Source: Nitrososphaerota archaeon
GTDB taxonomy: Archaea; Thermoproteota; Nitrososphaeria; Nitrososphaerales; Gagatemarchaeaceae
Assembly: GCA_027887045.1 (NCBI GenBank)
Contig: JAPCJH010000001.1
Location: forward strand, 1-64,000
Direction: 5' to 3'
DNA: 64,000 nt
Positions 30,924 through 60,845 of this stretch are shown here, in pieces. The notes under the pieces are model-generated. The model was given only the letters and a program-made list of their open reading frames with translations, was not told where the DNA came from and searched no databases. Positions within the stretch are counted from its first letter, which is position 1. Every line of letters starts with the position of its first letter. The position numbers and the translations under genes are program-made.

Positions 30924-31018
30924 TTTCCCCTGCCTCAGAAGAGAGGGTACTCTGGACGGGGAAAAGGACAGTAGGGTGTGGGGTGCTCTCATGGGTCGGT
31001 CATGGCGGGAGTCGTATA

Positions 31019-31609: not shown

Positions 31610-31655
31610 GAGTATGTCAACTCACCAAGCGATGGAAGCTCAGACATTCCCGGCT

Positions 31656-34055: not shown

Positions 34056-34116
34056 AAACGGATTGTCCTTCACGGGCGGCATCGGCGCGTGGTGTCGTGT
34101 CTCTTCGTACCCGTGC

Positions 34117-35271: not shown

Positions 35272-35337
35272 GTGCTCTAACCTCTCCGCCCGTTCCCAAA
35301 GTGGTTTACTAACAAGTCTGTGGGGCACCGATATGTC

Positions 35338-36330
35338 TTATGGAGACGGGGCATCAAGGAAAGTTGATGCGCTCGCCCGGGTGATTTTCATATGCCAGAC
35401 TCCGCGTAAGAAGACAATTCCTTCAACGGCAGTGAGAGCCACGATTGCATAGAAAGGTATCCAGGTGTAATCGAAATAGCTTGTCTCGATTCCGGAAGTC
35501 TCTACCATGGTGAGGAAACTGGACGCCAACCCATCGTACAGAAGGATTGCGTTGCCTGCGACGAGGGTCGCTGTGGTTAGAATTGAGAACTTGCGAAGTT
35601 GACTTCGGTTTGCGATCAAGAAGAGGGGAAGTGCATAGAGGCCGAATCTGGGATCGAAGAAAGCGAGCCCACATAGAAACCCAGCGAGGTAGGGTCGGCG
35701 ATTTTTGGCAAAGTGGTAAGATGCAATCACCAGGAATGTGACAAAGACTTTTGATTGACCTTCAACCCACTGCCAGTGGTAGCTTTGTGAGGCGTAAAAA
35801 TGTCCCAAATTTATCGTGAATTGAGGAGGGAAGGGAAGGGGTTGAAGGAGGACAATCCACAACACTCCAAGAATCGCCAATATGTTGACCTGTTTCAGGG
35901 ACCTGTAAAGAAGCAGAGCAATAATCGGCAAGAGTAGAAACTGAAAGGCGTTCCACGTGACCAACGCCGGGATGTAGGCAATGAGAAGAAGGGGCAGCAT
36001 GAAGAAGGAAAAGTAAGGCAAATACTTGAATTGAGTCGGGTCTTTGCCCAACGAATAGTCGCCGTTTACGGCGCCGTGGGTATAGATTTGGGCGGGATTG
36101 TGTACGAGCCGCCAAGCCGCTGTGTAGTAGGATCCGAAATCGAGGGAATAAGTTTCCTCCGGCAATGCGCCCGCAGACATCAACGGATAAGCTGAGAGGA
36201 AGATGCGAAGATTCAGTGTCAGGAGCGCGAGGACAGAAAGGGCGATGAGTAACCTCTTGAATCTCGGGTCCAGTTTCCCTGCAACAAACCAGGGCTGACG
36301 AAGACTATCAAGCAGCCCCTTCATTGACAT
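35338..36330 (-). CDS. Multispan membrane glycosyltransferase, GT87/DUF2029-like
   Basis: 330 residues with eight or more hydrophobic helices. The first extracytoplasmic loop, between TM1 and TM2, contains LDFGSYYTAAWRLVHNP, the DFxxYYxAA-type motif seen in polyprenyl-phosphate-mannose-dependent GT-C enzymes of the GT87/DUF2029 group. Such enzymes use lipid-linked sugars on the outer face of the membrane. FKYLPYFSFFMLPLLLI is the usual second conserved loop. It is likely to add a sugar to the exported glycan. The ATG at 36330 is followed by a second ATG two codons later. Confidence 0.72.
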   Translation of the reverse strand: MSMKGLLDSLRQPWFVAGKLDPRFKRLLIALSVLALLTLNLRIFLSAYPLMSAGALPEETYSLDFGSYYTAAWRLVHNPAQIYTHGAVNGDYSLGKDPTQFKYLPYFSFFMLPLLLIAYIPALVTWNAFQFLLLPIIALLLYRSLKQVNILAILGVLWIVLLQPLPFPPQFTINLGHFYASQSYHWQWVEGQSKVFVTFLVIASYHFAKNRRPYLAGFLCGLAFFDPRFGLYALPLFLIANRSQLRKFSILTTATLVAGNAILLYDGLASSFLTMVETSGIETSYFDYTWIPFYAIVALTAVEGIVFLRGVWHMKITRASASTFLDAPSP

Positions 36331-36462
36331 GGTTTGGTCCCCACCTGAGGTCCAAGCCGCGGCTCCGTTCGTATCATTGGTGTGACTCCCATCCTTTGGT
36401 GAAATGGGGGCCTCGTCTGGCTTGTTCCCGAATAATGGGTCCGGCGTACTGCACTCAAGATT

Positions 36463-37650
36463 TCAGCTCAGAGTCTCCAACACCCGATCTACGATACGGG
36501 GAATTGTCGATTCGACAGCGAACTCGTACATGTGGAGCGCTTGTTCTCTCGCATCGGCACGGAGCACGTCCCACGTTTCAAAGGCAAGCCTAATGCTGTT
36601 TTCGAAGTCCTCCAGGCTCGAGCCCGTCCACACTACCCCGCGGAGGTTTTTGAAATCAAGGTCTGCGGTTGCTGTCCGCGTGGCAATCACTGGTCTTCCT
36701 ACCGCCAAGGCCTCGGTTATCTTGAGCCATGCGCTGTGGCGCGAAAACCTCGACTTGGTGCTCGATGGACAGAGCAGGACGTCGCACGCGGCCAGATACC
36801 TAGGAAGTTCATCGTAAGGAACCAATCCCACATAGCCAAACGCAGATTCTGGCGCCTCTTTATGGAGTCGGGCGAACTCGCTCTTTAGCGGCCCCTTCCC
36901 CCCGATGACCAGATAGCCCATGGGGACAAGACTTCCCATCTCTTTGGCAAGCGGGACAAGTACTTCTCTGATAAGTCGATGCGGTTGCATGATTCCGAAC
37001 CACCCAACCACGAACTTCCCTTCCAACCCGAGACGTTTTCTAGTTGCACCTCCGTCAACGTCCAACCTGAATAGTTTGGTATCTACACCCCTGAAATACC
37101 CAGCAATTTTTTTCGCGGGAAAGCCTTCCTCGATGAGTCGTCTTGCGTACGCCTGGGAAGGCAGGATCAGCAGGCTTGAAAGTGAGACCATTGCTTTCTC
37201 TTCAAGAGCGGTAATCCTTTGTTCAGCACTCCCCTCCCTCATTCTTCCCTCTGCGACCTCGAAGTCGGTATACGGATCCCTCTGGTCTATTACGACGCTG
37301 ATCCCCGCAGCTCTCAATACGAGCTCAGTTGCCAGTCTTCGAAAAGGGGCATGACGGAAAAAGAGCCACTCATCAACGTACACCAACCGGACCCCGCTCC
37401 GCAAGCAGTACGCGAGTATTCGGGCCGCGGAGAGAAGAGTCGTTGCGACTCTAACGGTGGGAACTCCGAGGGTCACAAAAAGGATGCCATCCCCCCGGGA
37501 AACTGCATCTTGTCTTCCCAACTGAATCCAGCTCACGCCTATCCCCCGTCGCATGATCTCCCTTGAAACGTAGTAGCCCTTGACGTTGTCAAAGGTCGGG
37601 GGGAACTGAGCCTCACGGTCGAAGAGAAGAGCGACCCTCAAGGTTCTCAC
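36463..37650 (-). CDS. Glycosyltransferase family 4
   Basis: 395 residues, GT-B fold. The N-terminal domain starts RTLRVALLFDREAQFPPTFD. The C-terminal donor-binding domain has VVGWFGIMQPHRLIREVLVP, GGKGPLKSEFARLHKEAPES, FGYVGLVPYDELPRYLAACD and SAWLKITEALAVGRPVIATR (Glu of the donor site). It should be a retaining transferase. The GTG start overlaps the stop of the upstream GT4 gene by four bases (GTGA), so the pair is translationally coupled. Confidence 0.83.
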   Translation of the reverse strand: MRTLRVALLFDREAQFPPTFDNVKGYYVSREIMRRGIGVSWIQLGRQDAVSRGDGILFVTLGVPTVRVATTLLSAARILAYCLRSGVRLVYVDEWLFFRHAPFRRLATELVLRAAGISVVIDQRDPYTDFEVAEGRMREGSAEQRITALEEKAMVSLSSLLILPSQAYARRLIEEGFPAKKIAGYFRGVDTKLFRLDVDGGATRKRLGLEGKFVVGWFGIMQPHRLIREVLVPLAKEMGSLVPMGYLVIGGKGPLKSEFARLHKEAPESAFGYVGLVPYDELPRYLAACDVLLCPSSTKSRFSRHSAWLKITEALAVGRPVIATRTATADLDFKNLRGVVWTGSSLEDFENSIRLAFETWDVLRADAREQALHMYEFAVESTIPRIVDRVLETLS

Positions 37651-38852
37651 TTCGTCGGCGCACTCACAGGTCCGTAATTAAGAACGGAAAGGGAGATTTC
37701 AGCCGATTCCTTCTCCACCACCCTCTCCCAATCGAATCGCTGGACATACGCATTGGCGCGCGCACCAAACTTTGCTCGTCTCTCATCGTCACCGAGTACT
37801 GACAGAACTGTGTCCGCCAGCTCATCTGGTCTCTCGGGGGGGACGAACAACGCGACGTCATCGTAGACATCCCTGAGAGAGGGGATGTCTGAAAGCACGC
37901 AGCAGAGTCCGCACCCCATTGCTTGTGAAACCGCTTGTGCGAATCCCTCCCTTCTCGACGGAAAGACGAAAACCTTCGAACTGTTCAGGAGTTCGACGAG
38001 TTCCTTATCCCCCACGAATCCCCTGAAAATCACTGCGTCGGCGATTCCGAGGTCTTTAGCCATCGCCTGATACTTCTGTTGATCGGACCGATCTCCTCCT
38101 CCCATTAGGAGCAGCTTGGCTTGGGGGAGTTTCCCATGAACGATGGACCAGCTCTTGAGAAGGATGTCAATCCCCTTTTGAGGGACGAGGCGTCCCAAGA
38201 AGACTGCGTCGTAAACTTGGTCACGCTTCTTGGTTCTAAACTTCTCGCGGTCGAGCCCGTTCCCGACCACTACGCAGTCCTGAACTCCCAACGACTTGAC
38301 GACATCCGTCTTTGTGGCCTCCGAGAGGGCAAGATGCGCGTCCGCACGAATCGCAGAGAACCTGTTCGCCGCCGGTACGATGCTACGCCAGATAGAGTTG
38401 AACAAGCCGTATTTCCTCTGTCTCCTTGATGCAAAACCATCCCGGAAAGATGCGAAGGTATCTTCTGATAGGTGGTGATAAACGATTACAAGAGGCCTGC
38501 GCAATATGACTTTGAGGAGATAGCCGCTGACCACATTCTCCGGGTCCTGGTTGTAGGCATAAATCGCAGATGGTCTTTCCAGACCAACAAACGCAAGTCG
38601 AGGAACGGACCTAACGAGAAGAGCCGCCATGTCAAGCGGACTCCGAAGAGGAAGGCGACAGTCTCGAATTTCAAAAGAGACGTAGGCGTTTTCCTTCGCG
38701 TCGCGCTGGAAGGATGGGTGCATCTCCACCGTAAGTAGGCTTACGCGCCTAGCCTTGTACACTTTGGCCTTTTCAAGAAAACCCCTCTCATCTCCACGTA
38801 TCTGCCTACCCCAACGATACCTATGGACGAAGAGGCAGATCATCGATTTCAC
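37647..38852 (-). CDS. Glycosyltransferase family 4
   Basis: 401 residues. C-terminal domain: DAVFLGRLVPQKGIDILLKS, LLLMGGGDRSDQQKYQAMAK, ADAVIFRGFVGDKELVELLN and FPSRREGFAQAVSQAMGCGL (EGF...Q motif for the donor). The N-terminal acceptor domain begins ICLFVHRYRWGRQIRGDERG. It is a retaining GT-B enzyme. The second Glu of the E-x7-E motif is Gln here, which is tolerated in some members. It overlaps the next GT4 gene by four bases. Confidence 0.83.
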   Translation of the reverse strand: MKSMICLFVHRYRWGRQIRGDERGFLEKAKVYKARRVSLLTVEMHPSFQRDAKENAYVSFEIRDCRLPLRSPLDMAALLVRSVPRLAFVGLERPSAIYAYNQDPENVVSGYLLKVILRRPLVIVYHHLSEDTFASFRDGFASRRQRKYGLFNSIWRSIVPAANRFSAIRADAHLALSEATKTDVVKSLGVQDCVVVGNGLDREKFRTKKRDQVYDAVFLGRLVPQKGIDILLKSWSIVHGKLPQAKLLLMGGGDRSDQQKYQAMAKDLGIADAVIFRGFVGDKELVELLNSSKVFVFPSRREGFAQAVSQAMGCGLCCVLSDIPSLRDVYDDVALFVPPERPDELADTVLSVLGDDERRAKFGARANAYVQRFDWERVVEKESAEISLSVLNYGPVSAPTK

Positions 38853-38867
38853 TGGGCCCTGATCCTC

Positions 38868-40031
38868 CTATTCCCTTATTGCCTTCTCGAGCGCGTCTAT
38901 GGCCCTGTCGAGGCTAAATTGAGTCGCCGCCCGGTCGCGGGCTCTCGCCCCGAGCCTTTGCCGTAGCTCTTGGTCGGTTAAGATCCTCCGAAGGGCACCT
39001 GCAAGGGCGCGTGGGTCGTCTTCTGGCACAAGCAGCCCCGTCTCTTCATCTAGTATCGCCTCGGGGATGCCACCAGTTCTAGTCGCAACTGATGGCTTGC
39101 CGAATAGCCCCGCTTCGAGAAAGACGGTCCCGAATCCTTCAACATCTACTTTCGTCGTCCTCGAAGGCATCACCAGGACGTCTGACAGGACGAACAAATC
39201 ATACAACGGTGTCCCGACAAGGGCACCGTGGAAGCTGACTTTGTCCTGGACGTCAAGCTTCCTGGCAAGATCCCTAAGGGAGCCGGACTCGGGTCCGTCC
39301 CCCACAATGTCGAGCTTAGCCCTGGGGATTTGAGTGACCAGATCTCCGAACACCTTCAATAGCAGGTCTGCGCCCTTCCTTTCGACCAGGCGACCCACGA
39401 AGAGGATCCTCACCGAGTCATCGTTCAGTCGGGTGGCCGTGGTCATGTCAAGGATCCGAGGATCTACGGCCGGGAACACGAGCAAGTACTTTCCCCCCTT
39501 CGGGAGAAGACCCGAGGTGAACCTCGAATTAGTCGCGACGTTGTCTGCCAATCTTAGAGCAAAGAGAAGAAGCACGCGTCCAATCACGCTATTCCGTGCA
39601 ACCAAGATGTCGCGTCCGTAGAGGAATGCGACAGTGTGTCGCCCGCTCATCCGGCAGAATGCCATGAGAGTCAGCCCGAATACCGTCAGAGAACCGCTAA
39701 CCAATAGAACAGTGGTGAGGGCGTCGCGGGTGACAATCCTGATCGTGGTGGCCAAGGAAGACGGCGCTTGTAATGTGGATGAATTGAGCCGCGTCGTGAC
39801 GCCTGGCTCGGTCAGGGCGCGGGTCGGGGGGTAGCTTGGGGATAGGCTCATCACATCAACGAAATACCCTCTCCGCCTCAGCTCCCGCGCGTAGTTCTTT
39901 GACCTCCCCTCAATTCCACCGATGTTCTCGGGTGGGTCGAAAGTCACAAGCAATATTCTTTCCAGGATGGTTTGACCTTGCGCCTGCCTCAAGTGGCGTG
40001 ATGTAAAGCCTGCTGGTTCAGACTCGGGCAC
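38868..40031 (-). CDS. Glycosyltransferase family 4
   Basis: 387 residues as the frame starts with GTG at 40031; the family pattern would begin near ILLVTFDPPENIGGIEGRSK at about residue 26, so a shorter protein is possible. The donor domain shows ILFVGRLVERKGADLLLKVF, LDIVGDGPESGSLRDLARKL, and E-x7-E in DVEGFGTVFLEAGLFGKPSV. Classic PimA/WbpX-type GT4, retaining. It precedes two further GT4 genes on the same strand with gaps of only 15 and -4 bases, forming a three-gene block. Confidence 0.85.
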   Translation of the reverse strand: MPESEPAGFTSRHLRQAQGQTILERILLVTFDPPENIGGIEGRSKNYARELRRRGYFVDVMSLSPSYPPTRALTEPGVTTRLNSSTLQAPSSLATTIRIVTRDALTTVLLVSGSLTVFGLTLMAFCRMSGRHTVAFLYGRDILVARNSVIGRVLLLFALRLADNVATNSRFTSGLLPKGGKYLLVFPAVDPRILDMTTATRLNDDSVRILFVGRLVERKGADLLLKVFGDLVTQIPRAKLDIVGDGPESGSLRDLARKLDVQDKVSFHGALVGTPLYDLFVLSDVLVMPSRTTKVDVEGFGTVFLEAGLFGKPSVATRTGGIPEAILDEETGLLVPEDDPRALAGALRRILTDQELRQRLGARARDRAATQFSLDRAIDALEKAIRE

Positions 40032-40065: not shown

Positions 40066-43000
40066 TCAGACGAATGACCGGAGGAATGACGAGAAATCTT
40101 GTTCCTTCATTCGGTTCCTTAGCTTACGGAATAGGGCGAAGGCTCCGCCAGAGGCCATAAGCACAAGGAGCGCGGCGAGGGGAAAACTGAGTGCTACTGT
40201 AACATTCAATGTATCTCCCCCAGAATTCTGGACAACATCGTACGAGAGTCCCAGGTAATCGACGTGTGCGGTGAAAGGACCCTGCGGAAATTGAGGGAAA
40301 TGCGCGACTCCATCGCCGTCCGAGTGGGAAGTTATGCTGCGTCCATCTCCCGTGGTAATTGAAACCGCGGCGCCCATCAAGGGCTCACCGAAGATGTCAG
40401 TTATCCTCACCTGGACTCCATGGACGGGGAGGGGGACGGTATAAGTTCCAGGAGATGCTGTAACGATGATGTTTCCCGCCGCGACACTAGGGGCTACCGT
40501 AATCCCCGATAGTGAGACGCTTTGGATCAAATAATGCCCCCACGACACGAGCCAGAGTTGGCTGGTTCCGAGAACTGTGAGGGTCCCCGAGGGCCCGAGA
40601 AGCGTCACATTCTGGGGGTAAAGTTGGTTCCCCCGCGAATCTACGAACAGCAGCTTCGTCAGCAGCAGAGCCTGATAGTTGGCGACGATGTACATCCCGG
40701 GACTTGCCGCTAAACTGAGTGTCTCCGAGCTGGACTGAACGGATCCAGTCCATCCCTGAAACTGTCCTCGCACTTCAGAATTCGAGATCGATGAGGCCGA
40801 GATATTGTGGCGAGAACCCGTCGGCCACGAGAACGCGGCCGGGAGAGAGTAGCTTTTACCATCAACTAGAATCGCCGGAGCGCTCACTCCGCGAGCCTGG
40901 AAGGTCACATCAGCAGCCGGCTGTGTACTGACGTTCTGTGGGCTGAAGATAGCGGCCAGGACAGAGTTATTGCGGCCGACGTTGACTATGATTAGTGGGG
41001 AGTTTCCAAGAGAGTTGCCATCGAGCGCCCAGTGATCAAATGCGAAACCTGTGGCAGGGTAAGCGATTGCCAACAAGGTGGCGTTGGGCGCGAATTCGTA
41101 GCTGTTCGGCGATGGGCTCGTCGTCCCCCCGTCGGGCGGGAGAGCGGTCACCAGAAGAGTCTCATGTGAGTGGCTCGCTGAGAGGGACAGGGCATATGAA
41201 GCGGTACTCGTAAGTCCACCGGAGGAGGCGCGAATCGTAATGTAGTAAGTGCCTGAAGAAACGCTCGGAGAGACCTGAACCTGCATAATTGATGTGAAAC
41301 TTGAGCCGCCCTGTGGAGGGGAGAAGCTCACGCTGATGCCCGGAGGCAGGTTTGCGGCAGAAAGCGTGGCTTCTTGACCTGTACCCCCGACGGACACTAG
41401 CAGGCTGGTCGAGATAGCTCCTCCTCGGCCCACTGTTCCGAAAGATGGCGACACCGAGAGGCCGACGAACGGCACTCCAGAAGTCGAGCTAGCGCTTGTG
41501 CTGCTGGTGAAGGTTGTCGAACTGGTCGAAGTTGTCGAGCTCGGCGTGGATGTAGTGCTTGTGCTGGATGTCGTCGTCATCGTGGTCGTTGGCGTGGATG
41601 GCATCAAACTCTTTTCGACTTGGAATATCGTTTTCCCCTGATACGGCCCTGAACTCGAAGTTGTCATTGTGTTTGTATCCCATTGACCCTGCACCCCCAG
41701 GTAGAGATAGGAATAGCCGTATTGATTTTGGTTCATCGTTATTGTCGTTATGGAATTAGCTACGGTGTCGTATGGCTGAACATAGAAGGCGGTCGCTTGA
41801 TTCGGGAAGTCTATCTGCCCAATTACATACTGGATGTTGCTCTCACTTTTGACGCCGTTGAGCTGGGCAACGATAGGTGTGTAGCCTTGTTTGCCCGAGA
41901 AGCAAATCATCGCCCAGGATGCTAGCCCAAAGGAGGAAGAGTAGTCCCCACACTCGTTCAATCCAAAGCCTTTCCAACCTTGATTCAAAAGACCCTGAAG
42001 AACTTGCTGTTGGACGCTTGAAGTGTGTGTTTTCCAGAATCCGCCCCAATCGTCTAGAGAAACGTATTGGAAGCCAAGACTCAGCAGGTTTGAAGATGCA
42101 GATGACATCGTGCCCGCGTCGTAGTCATTGAGGCTTATTCGAGGAGTTATGATACAACCACCACAAGCCTGCCCAGATGCTGCCAAAAACTGTGAAACAG
42201 TCATAGGTGCACAACTCCCACAAACCGGAACTAACGCATTCGGATTTTGTGCATCATTGATATATCTATCAAGAGTAAAACCTGATCGTCCTCCATACGC
42301 GTCACTTATCATGCTCAAAACCTGTTGGGCGTTGTAACTTGTCATAACCCATTCTGAATTTGTGTCAAGCGCTCTTATTCGAAGGAAGGCTCTATTGCCA
42401 CCAGTGTTCACGGTTGAAGACGAAGATGAAGTTGCCGAGGTCGTGGTGGACGTGGTGGTCGACGTGGTGGACGTGGTGGTCGACGTGGTGGACGTGGTGG
42501 TCGACGTGGAAGACGAAATCGAAGAACTTGTCTGAGTCGCGCTGTTGCTGGTGAGGAAGGTATTCGGGTTACTGGCGATCCAGTTTGCTACCTCCTGTCT
42601 GAAGGCGGCTTGGTCCCAGAGAAAGCGGGTCGTCAATCCAGAGACTCCGGTGAAAAGTTGGATGTGGCCCCCTCCAGCGTCGAATGTGCTTCCCAGATTG
42701 CCCGCCAGGATGAAGCAGTACCGTCTGTTCGGTTGCGGGTTCGCAGCGTCCTTGTCTAAGACCTGCTTGATTGTAGGGGGTGTGCCGCACAGTGTCGTGG
42801 TGCTCCAGCCTGGAGAGACAATGGTGCTGTACACACTGATGTCGGCGCAACTCGTAGGAGGAAACGGCTGCTGTGCGTCGAGACCAGTGTCAATGCCGAC
42901 GGTGTATGGGTCGCCAACCCCCAAGTCTAGAGCGGAAGAAAAGTCACCGTGAGGGTAGTTCGTGACTGCCAGCCACTTGAGATTATTGTTGGACGTTCCC

Positions 43001-43668
43001 TCGTATCCCTGCGAATAGATGTTGACGGCTTCGAAACCCCTCTGATTTATCCAGGTCTGAGCCTGCGCGTAGTATTGGTCCTCTTGACTCGGGGAGGGCT
43101 GGGGATGATCGGTGACGATGTTGATGTGCTCGGCGTCAAGACCCACAAGCCCGATTGCGTTTTTCCCGGGACTGGCTGCAAGGGTGTCGAGGAACGTGCT
43201 GAATGCGTTCCACGAGGCTGAGTTGCCCAGGTCGAAGAAGATGATGAGATCCAGCTTTATGTTGGGATAAGGCTGAGCCTGTTGCATCACGGAGAGAAGA
43301 AAGTTCACGTTGTTCGGGTCTTGAAATTCCAGTGTCACCCCGTCCCCGAGTGCGCCTAGCTGGAATTGAGCCGTCGAGGGATATGGTGGCGTCAGGAACA
43401 TGGCGTTAAAGAAAGTCGTTGCGTCGTAGAACTGCCTCACCGCCCCGATGTTCAGGTAGCCAAAGCCGAACCTTCTTTCGGTAGAGGAAGCGGGCGACGA
43501 TGCCCCAAGGGATTGCGGGCCGGCGCCCAGGCCGATGCTGCTCCGAATGCCAGAAGCTAAGGAGGGGAAGGTGAAGACGGTAGAAAAAATGAACAGGCTC
43601 AGAACGAACCCCGTAGACAGGATCCTCTGGAGACTAGAATGATCCCTTCTCCGGGTAAGATATGCCAA
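40066..43668 (-). CDS. Large secreted, membrane-anchored surface protein with RRFGFGY domain
   Basis: 1,200 residues. Signal sequence at about 15-39 (ILSTGFVLSLFIFSTVF). Residues about 65-380 are domain A, starting RRFGFGYLNIGAVRQF and with repeated beta/alpha sequence suggesting a TIM-barrel-like fold (KLDLIIFFDLGN, IGLVGLDAEHINIV). Then a Ser/Thr-rich linker (about 385-420), a second barrel-like domain B (about 425-690; DYDAGTMSSASSNLLSLGFQ), another Ser/Thr linker, two or three Ig-like or carboxypeptidase-regulatory-like beta domains, and a C-terminal TM helix (LAALLVLMASGGAFALF) with basic tail. Domain A is shared with the protein at 45843-47306. Probably cell-surface displayed; the linkers are good O-glycosylation sites. 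Function unknown. Start is TTG. Confidence 0.82.
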   Translation of the reverse strand: MAYLTRRRDHSSLQRILSTGFVLSLFIFSTVFTFPSLASGIRSSIGLGAGPQSLGASSPASSTERRFGFGYLNIGAVRQFYDATTFFNAMFLTPPYPSTAQFQLGALGDGVTLEFQDPNNVNFLLSVMQQAQPYPNIKLDLIIFFDLGNSASWNAFSTFLDTLAASPGKNAIGLVGLDAEHINIVTDHPQPSPSQEDQYYAQAQTWINQRGFEAVNIYSQGYEGTSNNNLKWLAVTNYPHGDFSSALDLGVGDPYTVGIDTGLDAQQPFPPTSCADISVYSTIVSPGWSTTTLCGTPPTIKQVLDKDAANPQPNRRYCFILAGNLGSTFDAGGGHIQLFTGVSGLTTRFLWDQAAFRQEVANWIASNPNTFLTSNSATQTSSSISSSTSTTTSTTSTTTSTTSTTTSTTTSATSSSSSTVNTGGNRAFLRIRALDTNSEWVMTSYNAQQVLSMISDAYGGRSGFTLDRYINDAQNPNALVPVCGSCAPMTVSQFLAASGQACGGCIITPRISLNDYDAGTMSSASSNLLSLGFQYVSLDDWGGFWKTHTSSVQQQVLQGLLNQGWKGFGLNECGDYSSSFGLASWAMICFSGKQGYTPIVAQLNGVKSESNIQYVIGQIDFPNQATAFYVQPYDTVANSITTITMNQNQYGYSYLYLGVQGQWDTNTMTTSSSGPYQGKTIFQVEKSLMPSTPTTTMTTTSSTSTTSTPSSTTSTSSTTFTSSTSASSTSGVPFVGLSVSPSFGTVGRGGAISTSLLVSVGGTGQEATLSAANLPPGISVSFSPPQGGSSFTSIMQVQVSPSVSSGTYYITIRASSGGLTSTASYALSLSASHSHETLLVTALPPDGGTTSPSPNSYEFAPNATLLAIAYPATGFAFDHWALDGNSLGNSPLIIVNVGRNNSVLAAIFSPQNVSTQPAADVTFQARGVSAPAILVDGKSYSLPAAFSWPTGSRHNISASSISNSEVRGQFQGWTGSVQSSSETLSLAASPGMYIVANYQALLLTKLLFVDSRGNQLYPQNVTLLGPSGTLTVLGTSQLWLVSWGHYLIQSVSLSGITVAPSVAAGNIIVTASPGTYTVPLPVHGVQVRITDIFGEPLMGAAVSITTGDGRSITSHSDGDGVAHFPQFPQGPFTAHVDYLGLSYDVVQNSGGDTLNVTVALSFPLAALLVLMASGGAFALFRKLRNRMKEQDFSSFLRSFV
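42443..42505 (-). repeat. Three perfect 21-bp tandem repeats in a Ser/Thr linker
   Basis: The plus-strand unit GTGGTGGACGTGGTGGTCGAC occurs three times without change, encoding seven-residue Thr/Ser units on the minus strand. Because 21 is a multiple of three, gain or loss of units changes linker length without breaking the frame. Confidence 0.75.
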
Positions 43669-43914
43669 ACGGAACCCGAATCAGAGCTCCCCGCGGCCCA
43701 TATCATTCTTATGAAGGAAAAGCATAGATTTAACATATGTAATTCAAATTGCGCATGGGAATCTCCATTTCCATGCAAAATATTCAATTTATGTAAGATT
43801 TCCAACCCCGTTCACTAGCCATTGAGAGTAGATATCGGGCCATCTTCAGCTGCCTATAACTTTCTTGGCGATAAGGCCCTGATGAATTAAGCAGAGGCCT
43901 TGAATCCCATGTCT

Positions 43915-45642
43915 TTACGAACCATTCTTCTCGAGCAGGAAGTTCCCCAAAGCGAGCGCGTCCAAACCGGAATTCTTGAAGGTCCAAATGGCTTGCGCAG
44001 GCGTCAGAACCATTGTGTGTCCGTGCAGATTGAAGGATGTGTTCAAGAGTCCTCCAAACCCGGTAATCTTTTCATATTCGCTCAATAGCCTGTAGTAGGC
44101 CTCATTCCACTTCCTATCTAGAGTCTGGGGGCGACACGTGAGGTCGTAAGGATGAATTGCAGCCTCAATCTCTCGCCGCTTCTCAGTCGTGTCAAAACTG
44201 AGGACCATGTATGGAGCACTACAACCGTCGACAAGGTATTCATCTGACCTTCGCTCAAGGATTGTTGGCGCGAAAGGCATCCACCAAGTCCGCTGCTTCA
44301 CTTTCTCGTTAATCCTCTTGATCATGTGATGGTCATCGGCCCTCGCCAGGATTGATCTGTTCCCAAGGGCTCGTGGGCCCAATTCCTCTCTCCCTCGGAA
44401 TCGCCCGACGACTTTTCCCTTCGCCACTAGCTCTGCCGCGTCGGCATCAATGTCGTCTAGGTGCTTGGCACTTCCCTCAAGCCCTTCGCTCCGAAGTGCT
44501 TGCGCTATCTGCTCATCGCTATACTCAGGCCCCAGGTACAGGTCAGAAACCGGAGTGTATGTCGGCTTCAGACCATCTCTCTCACAAAACCATCGATATC
44601 CTTCGAGGGCGGCGCCGATTGCGCCTCCCGAATCAGTCGAGACGGGATAAACGAATAGGTCGTCAACACTCCCAAGCTGCTTTATTGCCTGGTTCATCTT
44701 GACGTTGAGGAACACACCCCCCGCGCCTGCCACTCGAGAAATCCCGGTATGCTTGACGCAGTTTTCCACCCAATTACATGCCAAACGCTCCAAAAGACTC
44801 TGAACCCCTGCGGCGATGTTGTCAAATCGTTCCCCCGCCAACCTTCGTCGCAGAAACTCCGTGTGAATCTCACGGCCTTCCCCTTTCATGAGACTCCCGC
44901 CTTCGAAACTGAGGCCACCTTTAGGTAATTCGATGATGCCTTCAAGAAGCTTGAAGACCGAATCAGGCCTCCCATACGGCGCCAGTCCCATGACCTTGTA
45001 CTCGTCTTCCTCTGGCTTCAGGCCAAGCATTTTCGTGACTCGCGTGTACAGGAGACCCAAACTTGCATCGCCTTTGCTGCTCGCAACGCGGGTGAGGTTA
45101 CCGCCGCGACCGACATTCACCGAGGCGCAAAGGCCGTCTCCGTACATGTCCAGTGTGAGCACAAGAGTGTCTTCTTGCCAAGGCTTCGTGCAATACGCCG
45201 TCATCGCATGCGCATGGTGATGCTCCACAAGAACGATCTTGTCCTTGAAACGCTGGAGCGCCGGCTCGAGTTCGGATAAGTGTGACAAAGGCTTCCCCAT
45301 CATCTTGGCGGCAGCCCTAAGGAGGAAGTGAAGCGCCGCATTGTCGTTCCAATTCCGTGCCATTTTCCCAAGGATGGAGAGTGCGGCTTGCCCCTCGACC
45401 GAGGCGGGGTAGAGTCTTCTTGCTTCCCGAAAAGCATACAGGATTAACCCGTCTATCGCGACGAGGTCAATTTCGTCTGGATCAGTTAAGCTCAGCACAT
45501 AATTCAGCGAGTTAATGGGCGGCCCCTTGTAATGTTTGACATCAACAAATCTCTCTTCCTCAACTGCACCAATCACCCTTCCGTCCTCGACCAGTGCTGC
45601 TGAACTATCATGACCTACATTCACTCCAAGAACTGTGACCAA
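43915..45642 (-). CDS. Carbamoyltransferase, NodU/TobZ family
   Basis: 575 residues, full family length. The N-terminal Kae1/YrdC-like part starts VTVLGVNVGHDSSAALVEDG and contains the metal-binding HHHAHAMTAY segment (near 137). The C-terminal half carries GRFRGREELGPRALGNRSIL and LLNTSFNLHGHTMV, which match the NodU/TobZ carbamoyl-adenylate domain. Enzymes of this kind put an O-carbamoyl group on a sugar or other small molecule from carbamoyl phosphate and ATP. Here the acceptor is likely a sugar of the surface glycan. Start is TTG at 45642. It sits between the two RRFGFGY surface-protein genes. Confidence 0.9.
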   Translation of the reverse strand: MVTVLGVNVGHDSSAALVEDGRVIGAVEEERFVDVKHYKGPPINSLNYVLSLTDPDEIDLVAIDGLILYAFREARRLYPASVEGQAALSILGKMARNWNDNAALHFLLRAAAKMMGKPLSHLSELEPALQRFKDKIVLVEHHHAHAMTAYCTKPWQEDTLVLTLDMYGDGLCASVNVGRGGNLTRVASSKGDASLGLLYTRVTKMLGLKPEEDEYKVMGLAPYGRPDSVFKLLEGIIELPKGGLSFEGGSLMKGEGREIHTEFLRRRLAGERFDNIAAGVQSLLERLACNWVENCVKHTGISRVAGAGGVFLNVKMNQAIKQLGSVDDLFVYPVSTDSGGAIGAALEGYRWFCERDGLKPTYTPVSDLYLGPEYSDEQIAQALRSEGLEGSAKHLDDIDADAAELVAKGKVVGRFRGREELGPRALGNRSILARADDHHMIKRINEKVKQRTWWMPFAPTILERRSDEYLVDGCSAPYMVLSFDTTEKRREIEAAIHPYDLTCRPQTLDRKWNEAYYRLLSEYEKITGFGGLLNTSFNLHGHTMVLTPAQAIWTFKNSGLDALALGNFLLEKNGS

Positions 45643-45842
45643 CTAGACTATCCCTCGAGGGCGAAGAGAATGAACTCAGAGGTTCGGTTACGAAGGCCTG
45701 CGCTGTTCCGCCCTTGTCGATTTGGCGACACGTTGGATTGAGAACTATTGTTCCAGATCAATGAATTACCTAACTCCTGTGCGAACGGAAGACAGCAAAT
45801 CCTGCGTTCTGCAGAACTCTCCGGGATTCTGGGATAATTGTA

Positions 45843-47306
45843 TCATCGTTTCGGCTTTCCCCGAAGAAGCCAAACTGGAACGGCAACGAGCCAAACAAGC
45901 ACTGCAGAGGCTCCGCCCAATACTGCCCCGATCGTGAGAGGATTGTCCCCTCGCGACCCCCCGCTGGAACTCTGGTTTCTAGTCGAGGAGGTTGTTTGGC
46001 CTGTGCTGCTGAAGGTTGTGCTTACGGTTGCGCTGCTTGATGAGCTTCTTATCGTGTGCGAAGTTGAACTAGTCCGGGCGATCGAGCTGGTTGAGCTTGA
46101 ACTTTGCGATGTGGTGCTGTTGGTTTGTGTGGAAGCGGAGGAAGTGGTCGAAATGCTGGAATTCGTCGATGAGCTGCTTGACAAGGTTGAGGTCGACGGC
46201 GGCGCTTCATTACCCAGCAAGTAGAATCCAGGGTTCGCCTGAATCCATTCCGTCACATCATGCCTGAACACGGGACTATCCCAGAGTGCGAAAGTCGTCT
46301 GATTGGAAACGCCAAGAAATGTGGCTGGCTTTATGGAACCGTTGACCGGTCCCAAGAACTCGCTTCCTGAGTTCCCGGCGTTGAGAAATATCCACTGGCC
46401 ATTCTGAAGCGGAACTTGACCTTCGATAGAGAGCGCCTGGTCGATGGTAGCCGGATACCCATGGTGCGTTACGACATTAGAACATGGTACGGAGTCGTTG
46501 TAGCCAGCGCCGGCGAATCCTTCAGCATAGGGGATCGTCGACCAACCTGGGTAAGACCCGCCATAAGCCCCTGTGCAACCCGGACTTGGGAAGGGTTGAT
46601 AACTGTCTAGACCCACAGCCTCGCCCACAGTATAAGAAGTCCCGGAGCCGAGGCCAAGAGCCGCTTCATTGTCGCCTTGTGGATAGGTAGTCTCTTGCAA
46701 CCAAGACCCGATGTAAGGGACCCCAAGGGACAGTGCCTGTGGATAGAGGTTTACCATCGAGAACCCGTCGTTGTTTATCGCGGTCTGAAGCAGTGTAAGA
46801 TAATTCATCTCTTGCGAACTGTTTATCGGAGTCCCCCACGCGAAGTGCTCTATGTCGACACCCACGAATCCCACGGTTTGTTTGTAAGGGCTCGAGGACA
46901 TCGCAGTCAGAAAGGCGTTCACGTCGACCCAAGAAGACGACAGTGTTGGGTCGAAAGCAATTTCGTACCCAAGTTGGATGCTCGGATATTGAGACGACAG
47001 TTGCATCACTCTGCTAAGGAAAGAAATAACCGAGCCGCTCGCAAACTCGTCATTTGATACCATGATGAACATCACAGTGGATGGATACGGCGGAGTCAGG
47101 AACATGGCGTTGAAGAATGTATCAGCCGAGTAATGACTTGGGTAGTTTCCACATGACTCGAGACATGCGGGATCTACGTACCCAAAGCCAAATCTCCTAC
47201 TTGAAGGGGGGGACGCGGTGGCAGGTGTCGCGGCGGTGTCAATTATGGCTGCAAATATCAGAATAAGTAGCAAAGTAGTCCCAAGCAAGCTTCGCCTTTC
47301 AATCAA
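45843..47306 (-). CDS. Secreted, membrane-anchored surface protein with RRFGFGY domain
   Basis: 487 residues. Signal peptide 1-31 (SLLGTTLLLILIFAAIIDTA), then RRFGFGYVDPACLESCGNYP at 36, a domain of about 320 residues shared with domain A of the 1,200-residue protein, including DTFFNAMFLTPPYPSTVMFI and VGFVGVDIEHFAWG. A Ser/Thr linker of about 80 residues (roughly 366-450) precedes a C-terminal TM helix (LTIGAVLGGASAVLVWLVAV) and a short basic tail. It looks like the minimal form of its larger paralogue. Probably surface-exposed and glycosylated. No catalytic motif recognised. Start is TTG. Confidence 0.8.
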   Translation of the reverse strand: MIERRSLLGTTLLLILIFAAIIDTAATPATASPPSSRRFGFGYVDPACLESCGNYPSHYSADTFFNAMFLTPPYPSTVMFIMVSNDEFASGSVISFLSRVMQLSSQYPSIQLGYEIAFDPTLSSSWVDVNAFLTAMSSSPYKQTVGFVGVDIEHFAWGTPINSSQEMNYLTLLQTAINNDGFSMVNLYPQALSLGVPYIGSWLQETTYPQGDNEAALGLGSGTSYTVGEAVGLDSYQPFPSPGCTGAYGGSYPGWSTIPYAEGFAGAGYNDSVPCSNVVTHHGYPATIDQALSIEGQVPLQNGQWIFLNAGNSGSEFLGPVNGSIKPATFLGVSNQTTFALWDSPVFRHDVTEWIQANPGFYLLGNEAPPSTSTLSSSSSTNSSISTTSSASTQTNSTTSQSSSSTSSIARTSSTSHTIRSSSSSATVSTTFSSTGQTTSSTRNQSSSGGSRGDNPLTIGAVLGGASAVLVWLVAVPVWLLRGKPKR

Positions 47307-47434: not shown

Positions 47435-48493
47435 ATGAGGATAGCTTTCGTGAGCACTTACAAGCCGATAGGTGGGATCAGCGTGAACACTCGCCAGCTG
47501 TCGAAAGAGTTTCGGCGACAAGGTCACGAGGTTACTGTTATTCCTCTGGTCGATCAGTCCACGATCCCCGCGACGGGATACTACCTCGCCAAGCTGCTCA
47601 ACGGCTTTGACATTATTCACGTCCAAGGTCTGAAGAGTATTTCGTCTGTGATATCGGGTTTCTTGGCATCGCGCACCATCAGGGGTGCATGCGTGTGTAC
47701 GGCGCACGGTTTTACCCCGCCATATTGGTACAGCAGTCCTAGCAAGAGATATTTGATGAGACACGCCCTCCGTCATTACGACGCCCTGATATCTGTCTCC
47801 GATTTTGTTAGGCACAGGTTTTCGAAGTTCGTCGGCGAGAGGCCCTCGCGCCAGTACACGGTGTACAATGGCGTCGACATTGATTTCTTCAACCCCGCGA
47901 TCGATCCGACGCCGCTTAGGCGGAGATTGGGGCTTACGAACAAGAAAGTTGTTCTGTACGTGGGGCGTCTCGCGCCCAGAAAAGGGGTCCAACATCTTCT
48001 GGATGCGTTCGCTCTCGCCGTCAAGACCTTTCCAGAACTCGCCCTTGTCATTTGTGGACGGGGGGAGATGGAGGGAGGACTGAGATCTCAGACTCAGAAG
48101 CTAGAGCTCACCCAAAGAGTCGTCTTTCCCGGCTTGGTGCCTCAGGAGGACCTGCCGCTCTACTATGCACTAAGCGATGTTGTTGCAGTTCCCAGCACGT
48201 ATGAGCCGATGGGGATAGTGCCTCTTGAAGCAATGAGCGCGGGGCGCCCCGTTGTCGCCTCAAACACCGGAGGGATCCCAGAGGTTGTTGAAGATACGCG
48301 AACAGGATTGCTTGTTCCCCCTGGCGATGCTCCTGCGCTCGCTGAAGCTCTTTGCTCACTTTGTGCGGACGAAGATTTGGCTCGGAAGCTCGGGGAAAGG
48401 GGGAGAGCAGCCGTTGTTGGAAAGTACACATGGGAAAGAATCGCGGTTGCCACCCTACAAGCATATGGTGCTATTCCTAGTCACTCGCACTAA
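47435..48493 (+). CDS. Glycosyltransferase family 4
   Basis: 352 residues. N-terminal MRIAFVSTYKPIGGISVNTR with the glycine loop (KPIGGISVNT), donor domain VVLYVGRLAPRKGVQHLLDA, LVICGRGEMEGGLRSQTQKL, and E-x7-E in STYEPMGIVPLEAMSAGRPV. This is a textbook retaining GT4 (PimA/WbpY-like). It is divergent from the surface-protein gene at 45843, and a TTTAAGG stretch near 47400 may be part of its promoter. Confidence 0.9.
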   Translation: MRIAFVSTYKPIGGISVNTRQLSKEFRRQGHEVTVIPLVDQSTIPATGYYLAKLLNGFDIIHVQGLKSISSVISGFLASRTIRGACVCTAHGFTPPYWYSSPSKRYLMRHALRHYDALISVSDFVRHRFSKFVGERPSRQYTVYNGVDIDFFNPAIDPTPLRRRLGLTNKKVVLYVGRLAPRKGVQHLLDAFALAVKTFPELALVICGRGEMEGGLRSQTQKLELTQRVVFPGLVPQEDLPLYYALSDVVAVPSTYEPMGIVPLEAMSAGRPVVASNTGGIPEVVEDTRTGLLVPPGDAPALAEALCSLCADEDLARKLGERGRAAVVGKYTWERIAVATLQAYGAIPSHSH

Positions 48494-48659
48494 TTCACAA
48501 TCCCAAGGAATGATTTCTCTGAAGAAAGGGCAATTGCTGGAAGAACCTCTCACGCCTTCCTGAATCTAGCCAGCGTCTCCCTGGCTCGAGGATAATCCAA
48601 CTTACCTGCCGAACAACACTACTGACGACATTCAGCGGCTCTGTCATGGATGTGTCGCC

Positions 48660-49574
48660 TCAGTGCGGGCTGTTGGGGCTCTCACGTGAACCAAATACAG
48701 TCTGTACTTTTCGGCTACGCAATCCTAGCCTTGCCAGCTCGCTGATACCCAGCCTGCTCCCGAGCCCGTGACGAGCCAACTTCCTGTAGTTTCGGGCCGC
48801 TGCGTAAGCGCCTAGCATGTTTCGCATGATCTTGACTTTCGTTTGTGAATCAAAGACCGACTCGTTCTCGAGAAAGTTCCTTTCAACGACGCTCGCCCGT
48901 AGATTGTAACGCAGGCGTCTTGGGACCCTTTCGAGAGTGTTGCCCCCGTAGATGCGGTATCCGTACAAAGGACGGGGAACATATCTGAAGGGGAATTTCG
49001 CCGCGAGACGCAGGACCAGGTCATAATCTTCGTTGCACACCAACGACTCATCGTAGAATCCTACTGCCTTGAAACAAGAACTCGGAGCCATGATAAGGGC
49101 GTTGGCGTTGAAACTCCTAGTGAGCAGATCGCCCAATATCATTCCGTTCCTGTGCAAGTAGTCGTCGTGGGTCGCCCGCCTTACAATCCCTTCGCCATCC
49201 ATGCCCCACCAATCACAATAAACGACACATGGGTGTACTTCTCTCTGCAGAGCTGCCATCTGTTCGCTGAGCTTGTCCGGAGCGTACAAATCGTCAGAGT
49301 CCAAGAAGCTTATCACCTCAGATTTCGCTGCGCGCAACCCCTCGTTCCGCGAGCGTGCGGCTCCTAGATTACTCGCATGCTTGATCAGTTGAACACGTAC
49401 ATCTTTTTCGACATAGTCTTCTACAATCTTGAGAGACCCGTCAGTCGACCCGTCGTCCACGATGATCAGTTCTAAGTCGCCAAGAGTCTGCGATAGGACA
49501 CTATCTATCGCGGAGGACACATACCTTCCTTTGTTGAAGTTAGGCATTATTACGGAGATTTCAGGAATAGTCAA
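48660..49574 (-). CDS. Glycosyltransferase family 2
   Basis: 304 residues. ISVIMPNFNKGRYVSSAIDS, then DDGSTDGSLKIVEDYVEKDV, then DxD in FLDSDDLYAPDKLSEQMAAL, and ED in CNEDYDLVLRLAAKFPF. GT-A fold, inverting. Very close in architecture to the plus-strand GT2 at 33153-34055. It is followed on the same strand, upstream in the locus, by a PIG-L-type deacetylase. Confidence 0.88.
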   Translation of the reverse strand: MTIPEISVIMPNFNKGRYVSSAIDSVLSQTLGDLELIIVDDGSTDGSLKIVEDYVEKDVRVQLIKHASNLGAARSRNEGLRAAKSEVISFLDSDDLYAPDKLSEQMAALQREVHPCVVYCDWWGMDGEGIVRRATHDDYLHRNGMILGDLLTRSFNANALIMAPSSCFKAVGFYDESLVCNEDYDLVLRLAAKFPFRYVPRPLYGYRIYGGNTLERVPRRLRYNLRASVVERNFLENESVFDSQTKVKIMRNMLGAYAAARNYRKLARHGLGSRLGISELARLGLRSRKVQTVFGSRESPNSPH

Positions 49575-49642
49575 TCACCTCTCAAGGCCGCCGACTTGGC
49601 CCGGAGGTCCACGTTTTCGCCTGTCAATGATCTGGGTATGCG

Positions 49643-50344
49643 TCAAGAGGCGATGACCCACTCCCGTTCATGATAGTGGGGGCTCCCCTTCGTCTCTTCT
49701 TCAGCAAGCGTCCGAGCATAATCCTCTACCCTGGAAATGTTGCTTGACCTTAGTTGGGATTTGTAGATCTTGAGCGCCGAGATTTTCGAAGCGATTGTCT
49801 TCGTCACGTCAATCAATACGGGACCCATTTTCATAGAGAGCGCCTTCTCGATGCTTTTGACGCTGGGGGTCGTATCATAGAATGTCGAATAGGGTAAGTC
49901 CTCGTAGAACCTGCAAGTAGATGTCTTGACGACGCCTGCTAGCATGAGATCGACGATGGTGCGAGCTAGCGTGACGTGGTCCGGATGGTTGCCTACCCCG
50001 AGCGGGCAGAGAATGGTCTCGGGTCTATCGTTCGCTAGATGGCTAAGAAGTGTTTCCCTCACACCAGGCAGGTGATTTGAAGGGCCATTCCGATCAGCCG
50101 CCCTGGCTGAAGAGTCAGGGAAGGCGAAGTAGCGAACTTGGTAGCCAAGCACCAACGACGACATCCTTTCTTCAGTCCACCTGTAGGCGGTGACCGCTAC
50201 TCTGTTCCTGAACCTCCGAAAGCGGGTGAATCGCGATAAGCCAAAGATGATGTAGACAATGACTTTGTGGTTTGCCCCGAGGCGGGGTATCGTTCCCCCG
50301 ACGGAAAGTGGTGCATCATCCGAGTGGGGAGAAAGGACGACCAC
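49643..50344 (-). CDS. PIG-L/LmbE-family deacetylase
   Basis: 233 residues. The zinc-binding N-terminal motif is PHSDDAPLSVGGTI (usually PHPDDExxG) and the second is GVGNHPDHVTLARTIVD (HPDH). These hold the His, Asp, Asp and His of the active site. The usual Glu after the second Asp is Ala here, which might weaken catalysis. The family removes N-acetyl groups from GlcNAc-type sugars on lipids or glycoconjugates. Start is GTG at 50344, 28 bases after a GT4 gene. It probably creates a free amino sugar in the glycan. Confidence 0.85.
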   Translation of the reverse strand: MVVLSPHSDDAPLSVGGTIPRLGANHKVIVYIIFGLSRFTRFRRFRNRVAVTAYRWTEERMSSLVLGYQVRYFAFPDSSARAADRNGPSNHLPGVRETLLSHLANDRPETILCPLGVGNHPDHVTLARTIVDLMLAGVVKTSTCRFYEDLPYSTFYDTTPSVKSIEKALSMKMGPVLIDVTKTIASKISALKIYKSQLRSSNISRVEDYARTLAEEETKGSPHYHEREWVIAS

Positions 50345-50372
50345 TATGCCGGCCGAGGCTGGTTCAACCTGC

Positions 50373-51566
50373 CTACGGTCTTCGATGCGAGAGCTCGTCG
50401 TAGACGCCCGTCACCCTGTTTGCCACTTTATCCCAGGTGAACATGGCCTCTACCTTCTCCCTCCCCCGTCTGCCCATCTCCTTCGCCATTTTGCCATCCT
50501 GCATGATTGATATGATTGCTCTGGCGAGCTCGCTCGGTGATCCAAAATGGACGAGAATGCCGGACTGATTCTGGTCCACGACCTCGCGGAGTCCTCCGGC
50601 ATCTGTGGCCACGACCGGCTTGCCGCAAGCCATTGCCTCCACGGCGACCTTCGAGAAGGTCTCGTAATAGGAAGGCAGGGCGAAAACCTCCGAGGACGAG
50701 TAATAGTTGACAAGGTCGGGGTTGGGGACGGCGTCAAGAAAGGTCACAGAATCAACGACGCCGGCTGATTCAGCGGTCTTTCTCAGGATAGACAAATAGT
50801 CCATGCCTTTCAGCCATTTCGGCGCCCCTCCGATGCAAACGAGGTGGGCATCGGGGACTTCCTTCTTCACCATTGCCATTGCCCGCACCAGGAAGAAGAT
50901 TCCTTTCCTCAGGCCAAAGTGACCGGCGTAGAGGATAATCCTTTTCCCCTGAAGGTTAGCGATTCGCTCGGGCAGCACGGGGGGAATGCCGGGGTGGAAG
51001 AGGTCGGCGTCAACGCCGTTGTAGACGACTTTGACCATGCTCTCTGGGAGTCGGTAGAAGCCGGTGACGTCTTCTTTGGAGGCAGCACTGACGGTAAGCA
51101 CCCTGTCAGCGCTGGACCAGAAGATTCTTTCCCGGAACATGTGATAATTGACGGACAGCGAATCGTAGTCTACACTCAGCTCCCCGCTCTTAACCTTGAG
51201 CGGCGTGTGGTGGGAGCGCGAAGTACCGTGAACGTGGCACACGAGCGGGAAGCGTCTGATGTACTTGGACGCGGCAAGCGCGACTCCGCAGGTCGCGTGT
51301 GAATGGACCACCCACTCCGGGTCGGTCCCCACGATCTTTCGAATCATTCTTATTGAATTAACATTGAACGGGGCGGGGACACGGTGGACGTGCACCCCCC
51401 TGCATACTTCCTCTGACGGTTCTCCGTTCCTCAGGGCTATCACGTGCACTTCATACCCCTGCTTGACTTGGGCCTCGGAGAGACCCACGAACACCGGCTG
51501 GAGGCCGAAGGTCGATAGCCCTTTGTATGGATAGTCCCACGCCAGCCTGCAAACTTTTCTAATCAA
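50373..51566 (-). CDS. Glycosyltransferase family 4
   Basis: 397 residues. RKVCRLAWDYPYKGLSTFGL, then donor domain IILYAGHFGLRKGIFFLVRA, LVCIGGAPKWLKGMDYLSIL, and E-x7-E in YYETFSKVAVEAMACGKPVV. Retaining GT-B enzyme. Start is TTG at 51566. It lies just before the PIG-L-type gene on the same strand, so the pair may act in succession (transfer of an N-acetylated sugar, then removal of acetyl). This order is inferred from gene position. Confidence 0.88.
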   Translation of the reverse strand: MIRKVCRLAWDYPYKGLSTFGLQPVFVGLSEAQVKQGYEVHVIALRNGEPSEEVCRGVHVHRVPAPFNVNSIRMIRKIVGTDPEWVVHSHATCGVALAASKYIRRFPLVCHVHGTSRSHHTPLKVKSGELSVDYDSLSVNYHMFRERIFWSSADRVLTVSAASKEDVTGFYRLPESMVKVVYNGVDADLFHPGIPPVLPERIANLQGKRIILYAGHFGLRKGIFFLVRAMAMVKKEVPDAHLVCIGGAPKWLKGMDYLSILRKTAESAGVVDSVTFLDAVPNPDLVNYYSSSEVFALPSYYETFSKVAVEAMACGKPVVATDAGGLREVVDQNQSGILVHFGSPSELARAIISIMQDGKMAKEMGRRGREKVEAMFTWDKVANRVTGVYDELSHRRP

Positions 51567-51651
51567 TGGGCCTTGGCCTCGTTCTAAACGGACGCTCCGG
51601 GGACGGAAGCCGACTCTCTTTCATTGAGTCGAAATGCAATCGGTTCGTCAC

Positions 51652-52668
51652 TCAAAACCTGCCGAGGTCAGGATGACTAATCCCGCTCCTAGCTAGAGAG
51701 AGCACTATCAGCCCATAGACGACCCCGGAGCTGAAGGCTATCCTGGCCGTTAGCGCAATCGGTGCCGAAACAAGCGCGTCAACGAGGGAGCCGGAGTGGC
51801 TGCGATGTCTGGAGAGCGAAGCCAGGAGGTACCCTGCCGTGCCAAGTAGTATGAGAGCCAGAGAGTACACCAGGCCCGCGATTGGGATCGCCACGAGAAC
51901 CAGTAGCAGGAAAGCGAATGGCAGGAGGCTCTTCGTCAGGGAACTAAGGTCCTTTCTCTTGGCTTCGAACACAACTCGCCGTCGCCCGCTCGCGACCTCC
52001 TTCCGTATCAGCCTGGGGTATGTCCCGGGTTTTCGGTGGTACCAGTTGACGCCCCCCACGTAGGCTATTCTGTAGCCAGCCTTCTTGACCCTGCTGCAAA
52101 GGTCCTTGTCTTCGGCCTGGGCGAGGGTCTCGTCAAACCCTCCGACCTCTTCCAGGCACTTACGCCGGTAAACCCAGGCCCAGCCAGGGTCGGACTGCGA
52201 GTTCTGACGGAACCTCGCATCGGTCCCCCCGAAAGCCCTGTAATACCTCTGAAGGGCGGGGCTTCCCGAGGCCAACGCCGTCCCACCGAGACAGACCCCG
52301 CCCGCCTCCTCATCCGAGTCCAGTGAGGCGACAGCCCTGCTCAAGTATTCAGGTTCGTACGTGTCGTCTCCGTCGGCAAACATGATGATCTCGCTGTCGC
52401 AACCGCGCCAACCGATGTTTCTAGCTTGAGACCTTCCGACCCCCTCGCACTTTATCACTCTGCACGAAGGGAAAGAGAGGGCGAAGGACTCGACCACGTT
52501 CGCGGTGTTGTCGGAAGACGATGTATCCAGAACGATTACGATCTCTTTCTCTCGATAACTTTGCCTCGAGAGCGCCGAGAGACACTCCCCAAGAGCGTCG
52601 CCGTTGTTGTATGCAGTGATTATCACGCTGGCCCTGGGAGGGCCCGTTTTCCCCACGGGGGCTGGCAA
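51652..52668 (-). CDS. Glycosyltransferase family 2 with C-terminal membrane helices
   Basis: 338 residues. ASVIITAYNNGDALGECLSA, DxD in MFADGDDTYEPEYLSRAVAS, and ED in LAQAEDKDLCSRVKKAGYR. The C-terminal 100 residues contain four hydrophobic segments (LLPFAFLLLVLVAIPIAGLVYSLALILLG), so it is a processive or membrane-bound GT2. Start is TTG at 52668, two bases after the stop of the large bi-domain oxidoreductase gene, which suggests coupling. Confidence 0.86.
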   Translation of the reverse strand: MPAPVGKTGPPRASVIITAYNNGDALGECLSALSRQSYREKEIVIVLDTSSSDNTANVVESFALSFPSCRVIKCEGVGRSQARNIGWRGCDSEIIMFADGDDTYEPEYLSRAVASLDSDEEAGGVCLGGTALASGSPALQRYYRAFGGTDARFRQNSQSDPGWAWVYRRKCLEEVGGFDETLAQAEDKDLCSRVKKAGYRIAYVGGVNWYHRKPGTYPRLIRKEVASGRRRVVFEAKRKDLSSLTKSLLPFAFLLLVLVAIPIAGLVYSLALILLGTAGYLLASLSRHRSHSGSLVDALVSAPIALTARIAFSSGVVYGLIVLSLARSGISHPDLGRF

Positions 52669-52670
52669 GG

Positions 52671-55618: not shown

Positions 55619-55632
55619 TATGCTTCTTGTCC

Positions 55633-57509: not shown

Positions 57510-57526
57510 GGGTGTCCCGACCTCAG

Positions 57527-60843: not shown

Positions 60844-60845
60844 CG

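Follow-up and report, generated by a model that had tools for sequence, protein, structure and literature searches.

In bacteria, exopolysaccharide (EPS) loci commonly include a gene for a hydrolase by which the polymer made there is processed (PMC9075953, PMC9894940, PMC5933820). Secreted Pel arises through the hydrolase activity of PelA (PMC9894940); other hydrolases encoded in EPS loci include PgaB and PslG (PMC5933820, PMC9075953). The two soil thaumarchaeal proteins described here, P1 and P2, resemble these in that a glycan-active protein, in our case a putative one, has its gene within the locus that makes the polymer on which it would act. They differ in that PelA, PgaB and PslG are bacterial and belong to other sequence families, whereas P1 and P2 are archaeal and combine two paralogous heads with membrane anchors and mucin-like linkers, their activity being putative. 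A second comparison is with GH135 (Spherulin-4, Sph3), a secreted glycosidase family with a barrel fold. The gain of GH135 in the topsoil genus has been read as potential fungal-wall degradation (PMC10640624). The third comparison, with the carbamoyltransferases TobZ and NodU, concerns the gene that separates P1 from P2.

Two tethered proteins in an exopolysaccharide locus

The window, that is the whole stretch of 64,000 nucleotides analysed, comes from a genome assembly of 1.195 Mb in 3 contigs that is 55.6% complete. Its relevant features are as follows (a block of genes is given without a strand for the whole).

29619–32999, minus strand: two UDP-sugar dehydrogenase genes (29619–31109 and 31656–32999), conserved in the G029 locus
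33153–40031, block: a GT2 gene (plus strand), an HPr-kinase-like protein, a GT87 membrane protein and three GT4 genes, adjoining P1
40066–43668, minus strand: P1, 1200 aa, secreted, membrane-anchored, multidomain
40099–41439, minus strand: stalk and transmembrane segment of P1, conserved and beta-rich, common to surface proteins of relatives
41440–41634, minus strand: Ser/Thr-rich linker 2 of P1, residues 679–743
41599–42402, minus strand: domain 2 of P1, barrel-type, unrelated to domain 1 and absent from the G029 orthologue
42376–42582, minus strand: Ser/Thr-rich linker 1 of P1, residues 363–431
42544–43479, minus strand: RRFGFGY domain (domain 1) of P1
43915–45642, minus strand: NodU/TobZ-type O-carbamoyltransferase, lying exactly between P1 and P2 but not conserved as their partner
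45843–47306, minus strand: P2, 487 aa, secreted, membrane-anchored (signal, RRFGFGY domain, Ser/Thr linker, transmembrane segment, basic tail)
45861–45935, minus strand: C-terminal transmembrane segment of P2 and basic tail, from hydropathy
45948–46220, minus strand: Ser/Thr-rich linker of P2, residues 363–453
46209–47204, minus strand: RRFGFGY domain (domain 1) of P2, a predicted (beta/alpha) barrel
47435–58681, block: glycosyltransferases, a PIG-L deacetylase, a fused ADH/GFO-IDH-MocA oxidoreductase and ABC-2 exporter genes

P1 and P2 are real open reading frames, and both lie where the sequence-only reading had placed them. Each begins with a hydrophobic, signal-like segment and ends with a hydrophobic segment followed by basic residues, so that by hydropathy both have the marks of exported, C-terminally anchored proteins. 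The Ser/Thr-rich linkers (stretches in which S+T make up at least 60% of 30 aa) and anchors that had been reported for the pair are present in both, by composition and hydropathy. P1 is the more elaborate, running from the signal through domain 1, a linker, domain 2 and a second linker to a beta-rich stalk and the transmembrane segment; its second barrel-type domain (41599–42402) and its stalk (40099–41439), both on the minus strand, had been missed.

The locus is rich in glycosyltransferases, as had been claimed, with many GT2 and GT4 genes around P1 and P2, a GT87 gene, the sugar dehydrogenases and the exporter. This arrangement is mirrored in a second genome, G029, which is 94% complete and belongs to another genus. 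On its contig C13, 16 genes are reciprocal best hits of genes in the locus (35–85% identity), P1 and P2 included, and of the genes between 33153 and 40031 all except that for GT87 are conserved there. P1 and P2 thus lie inside a locus for polysaccharide synthesis and export, and their position in it is kept in G029, where P2' and P1' are direct neighbours.

Some further genes of the window deserve mention. The HPr-kinase-C-like protein (34117–35328, minus strand), whose PF07475 match is below the cut-off, pairs with a gene of the G029 EPS locus by reciprocal best hit, and the locus of a third genome, G014, encodes a protein that looks similar. The fusion of a zinc-binding alcohol dehydrogenase with a GFO/IDH/MocA oxidoreductase (52671–54839, minus strand) recurs at 52–74% in several relatives and is a useful marker of the EPS locus. 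Finally, two large, partly overlapping ORFs of 839 and 979 aa occupy 58780–63785 (minus strand), neither with a counterpart on G029 contig C13. Since it has CarboxypepD_reg and Ig-like matches, the 979-aa ORF probably encodes a surface protein.

The RRFGFGY domain and its relatives

As the sequence-only reading had it, P1 and P2 share a domain. It measures ∼330 aa, with 44% identity (E 6.5e-52; 45% in the alignment), far above chance. Profile and sequence searches of Pfam, NCBIfam, PHROGs and PDB sequences gave no match to domain 1, plasmids and viral contigs contained nothing, and no glycosidase family matched in sequence. In particular, P1, P2 and the five copies of the domain gave no match to the GH135/Spherulin-4 profile PF12138 (cut-off 30.2 bits), even at E 1–10. 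The description of the domain as uncharacterised was therefore borne out by the profile search. Domain 1 is a real new family, one for which none of the libraries searched has a model, and the arrangement in which it occurs is of a known kind.

An AlphaFold2 model built from the five sequences (pTM 0.72, mean pLDDT 63) shows beta/alpha alternation, with residues 1–154 mostly well predicted and residues 155–252 and 279–292 below pLDDT 50. The best Foldseek matches to this model are (beta/alpha)8 barrels. They include many glycoside hydrolases (GH29, GH18, GH27-type, GH5, GH10), as well as sugar 3-epimerases and other non-glycosidases, and their best TM-scores are about 0.2–0.45. The alternation and the Foldseek barrels make a (beta/alpha) barrel likely; the low confidence in the second half of the model and the low TM-scores mean that the fold is not secured. 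The barrel-like character proposed earlier thus agrees with the structure prediction, as a predicted fold.

In all five copies the carboxylates E53, E119, D178 and D309 (numbering of the P2 domain) are invariant, and position 200 is always D or E. Only two conserved carboxylates are placed at predicted strand ends: by our count of the strands, E119 follows directly after predicted strand 4, and D/E200 directly after predicted strand 6, with the model uncertain around residue 200. On this model E119 and D/E200 would be the candidate acid pair. Strand 4 is followed by a D-x-E whose D is not conserved in G029.

Across genome searches that together covered 1,805 genome slots, which overlap and several of which were run with other queries, domain 1 was found in only two genomes, both from soil Thaumarchaeota: the window genome and, with three copies, G029. 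Scanning the genome contigs of GTDB 220 returned a sole match, JAPCJK010000011.1 of isolate SubAcS15-57, a contig equal in length to that of G029. Weak genome matches outside the family (E 0.003–0.3, about 10–17 bits) were short, some of them interrupted by stops, and we attribute them to chance. All five domain-1 proteins examined have the linker and the C-terminal hydrophobic segment.

G014, from the same family, encodes three proteins (L107:10649–16562, contig C1) with a domain that we call RLGFW near a homologous EPS locus, one of them on the stalk of P1. The RLGFW domain aligns with domain 1 at an hhalign E of 0.001, a score reached by none of 300 column shuffles; once the first 45 columns are removed, 65 of 300 shuffles reach the score. 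The signal thus comes mostly from the N-terminal motif, for which reason we regard the G014 domain as only a probable diverged form of the RRFGFGY domain. A MAFFT alignment that includes the G014 copies looks wrong in its middle, and a search with it recovers these copies because they were already in the alignment. Every copy of domain 1, and likewise the probable G014 form, lies within or next to an EPS locus of this kind. Recurrence in other archaeal glycan loci, on which the sequence-only reading had staked the domain, is thus seen in the G029 locus.

Varying heads on P1-type stalks

The stalk of P1 recurs in relatives at about 30–46% identity, and what it carries varies. In G007 a stalk of the P1 type (32% identity, E 1e-54) bears a Spherulin-4/GH135 domain (PF12138, 1.2e-40) with the same kind of Ser/Thr linker as lies behind domain 1 of P1, so that domain 1 occupies a slot that can be filled by a glycosidase. 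This common slot is the best indirect hint that domain 1 may be glycan-active. It is no proof of enzymatic activity, since in G017 and G021 the N-terminal parts on P1-type stalks are different and do not look like barrels. In G014 such a stalk bears the RLGFW domain. The two heads also differ in where they occur: genera g2 and g6 have many Spherulin-4 genes, whereas neither the window genome nor the g7 genomes listed yielded any.

Domain 2 of P1 gave a more confident AlphaFold2 model (mean pLDDT 86, pTM 0.86), again with beta/alpha alternation and with barrels returned by Foldseek. Its aspartates D117 and D198 are invariant and follow predicted strands. It has no Pfam family. A relationship between the two domains of P1 was rejected (hhalign E 0.33), and none was detected between domain 2 and the RLGFW form of G014. 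Stand-alone secreted relatives of domain 2, at 30–42% identity, occur in G007, G021, G108 and G076, two of them with weak matches to Tat-signal-type profiles, and the G029 counterpart of P1 aligns solely outside domain 2. In G007 (contig C145) the domain-2 protein adjoins a Spherulin-4 gene, a neighbourhood which suggests a common glycan-related function.

Possible roles of P1 and P2

We propose that P1 and P2 are membrane-tethered, glycan-active and probably hydrolytic barrels that act on the polysaccharide of their own locus, a proposal whose chances we regard as evenly balanced and in which catalysis and substrate are putative. Both proteins would be exported and tethered to the membrane as part of a locus for EPS biosynthesis and export. 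Domain 1, predicted to be a (beta/alpha) barrel of an undescribed family, would act on the polysaccharide leaving the ABC exporter, probably by cleaving or trimming it, with the Ser/Thr linkers and the stalk keeping the barrel at a distance from the membrane. The carbamoyltransferase may decorate the same glycan, independently and facultatively. The suggestion of the sequence-only reading that the domain is a glycan-active enzyme or binding module stands as the leading hypothesis, on the barrel prediction and the glycan loci; its catalytic part is something that we infer. The kinship of the domains, the build of the two proteins, their setting in the locus and its synteny with G029 are shown by the data, whereas the fold is a prediction. 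Stated more broadly, domain 1 probably cuts or binds the outer sugar coat.

The main rival takes the second of these verbs: domain 1 would be a non-catalytic barrel whose binding of the cell's own polysaccharide fastens the polymer to the membrane, with two to three copies per genome giving avidity. This is unlikely but to be taken seriously. It suits the several copies, the linker and hydrophobic segment common to all five proteins, the small number of conserved carboxylates, the absence of any further domain from P2 and the fact that no other polymer anchor was recognised in the locus. However, invariant acids near predicted strand ends, and a slot that is common with GH135, fit an enzyme at least equally well.

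It is improbable that the barrels are instead surface hydrolases for foreign glycans, such as fungal or plant polymers in soil, which would serve in feeding and lie in the EPS locus incidentally. Secreted GH135 of the same archaeal family has been interpreted as acting on fungal wall polymers (PMC10640624), and the Spherulin-4 gene beside a domain-2 relative in G007 would fit such a role. Against this, P1 and P2 are kept inside a biosynthetic locus in two genera, and we identified no sugar-uptake or other degradation genes beside them.

The gene between P1 and P2 bears on a further idea. It matches Carbam_trans_N (5.9e-49) and Carbam_trans_C (2e-57) above the cut-offs and over the full profile lengths, so that the placing of a NodU/TobZ-type carbamoyltransferase gene exactly between the two was correct. 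It also aligns with TobZ (E 7e-65) through the HHxxAHA stretch and looks intact. In contrast to its likeness to TobZ, it falls below the cut-off of the NodU equivalog NF041651 (159 bits against 1000), and it is not a regular neighbour of domain 1. The sequence-only reading had joined it with P1 and P2 into one unit, in which the Ser/Thr linkers would carry the carbamoylated glycan; the gene order, the intact-looking enzyme and the mucin-like linkers are as that idea would have them. The functional unit is not supported by comparison with other genomes, and we consider it very unlikely. No homologue of the enzyme was found in the 94%-complete G029, where P1' and P2' adjoin, and a conserved pairing of the enzyme with domain 1 was rejected on these grounds; conversely, G035 and G011, which have homologues among glycan genes (judged by eye), are not among the genomes with a domain-1 match. 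Nor was a PMT gene (PF02366) found in the window genome, at its completeness of only about 56%. In view of G029, G035 and G011, the carbamoyltransferase is best seen as an independent, facultative decorator of the locus glycan rather than as a regular partner of domain 1.

That P1 and P2 are S-layer-like or adhesin-like envelope parts with a purely structural head is least credible of all, for whilst the Ser/Thr linkers, the anchor and an InlB-like repeat (PF18998) in the stalk of a relative would suit such a role, the family is rare, has two to three copies, lies within a biosynthetic locus and is not conserved across the lineage.

Returning to the proposal of barrels that process the polysaccharide of their own locus, a bolder form of it is possible, though we hold it only tentatively: domain 1 would found a new family of glycoside hydrolases or lyases which, in subsoil Thaumarchaeota, heads a modular, membrane-tethered polysaccharide-processing protein in place of GH135. 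In the window organism it would be fused to domain 2, the representative of another new barrel family. If this is true, two new candidate enzyme families would be added, and archaea, like bacteria and fungi, would have dedicated glycan-processing barrels within their exopolysaccharide loci, the archaeal ones differing by their tethering on a mucin-like stalk and by their exchangeable heads. It would also provide a concrete test of the role of GH135-type proteins in uncultured soil Thaumarchaeota, between feeding on fungi and maturation of the cell's own coat.
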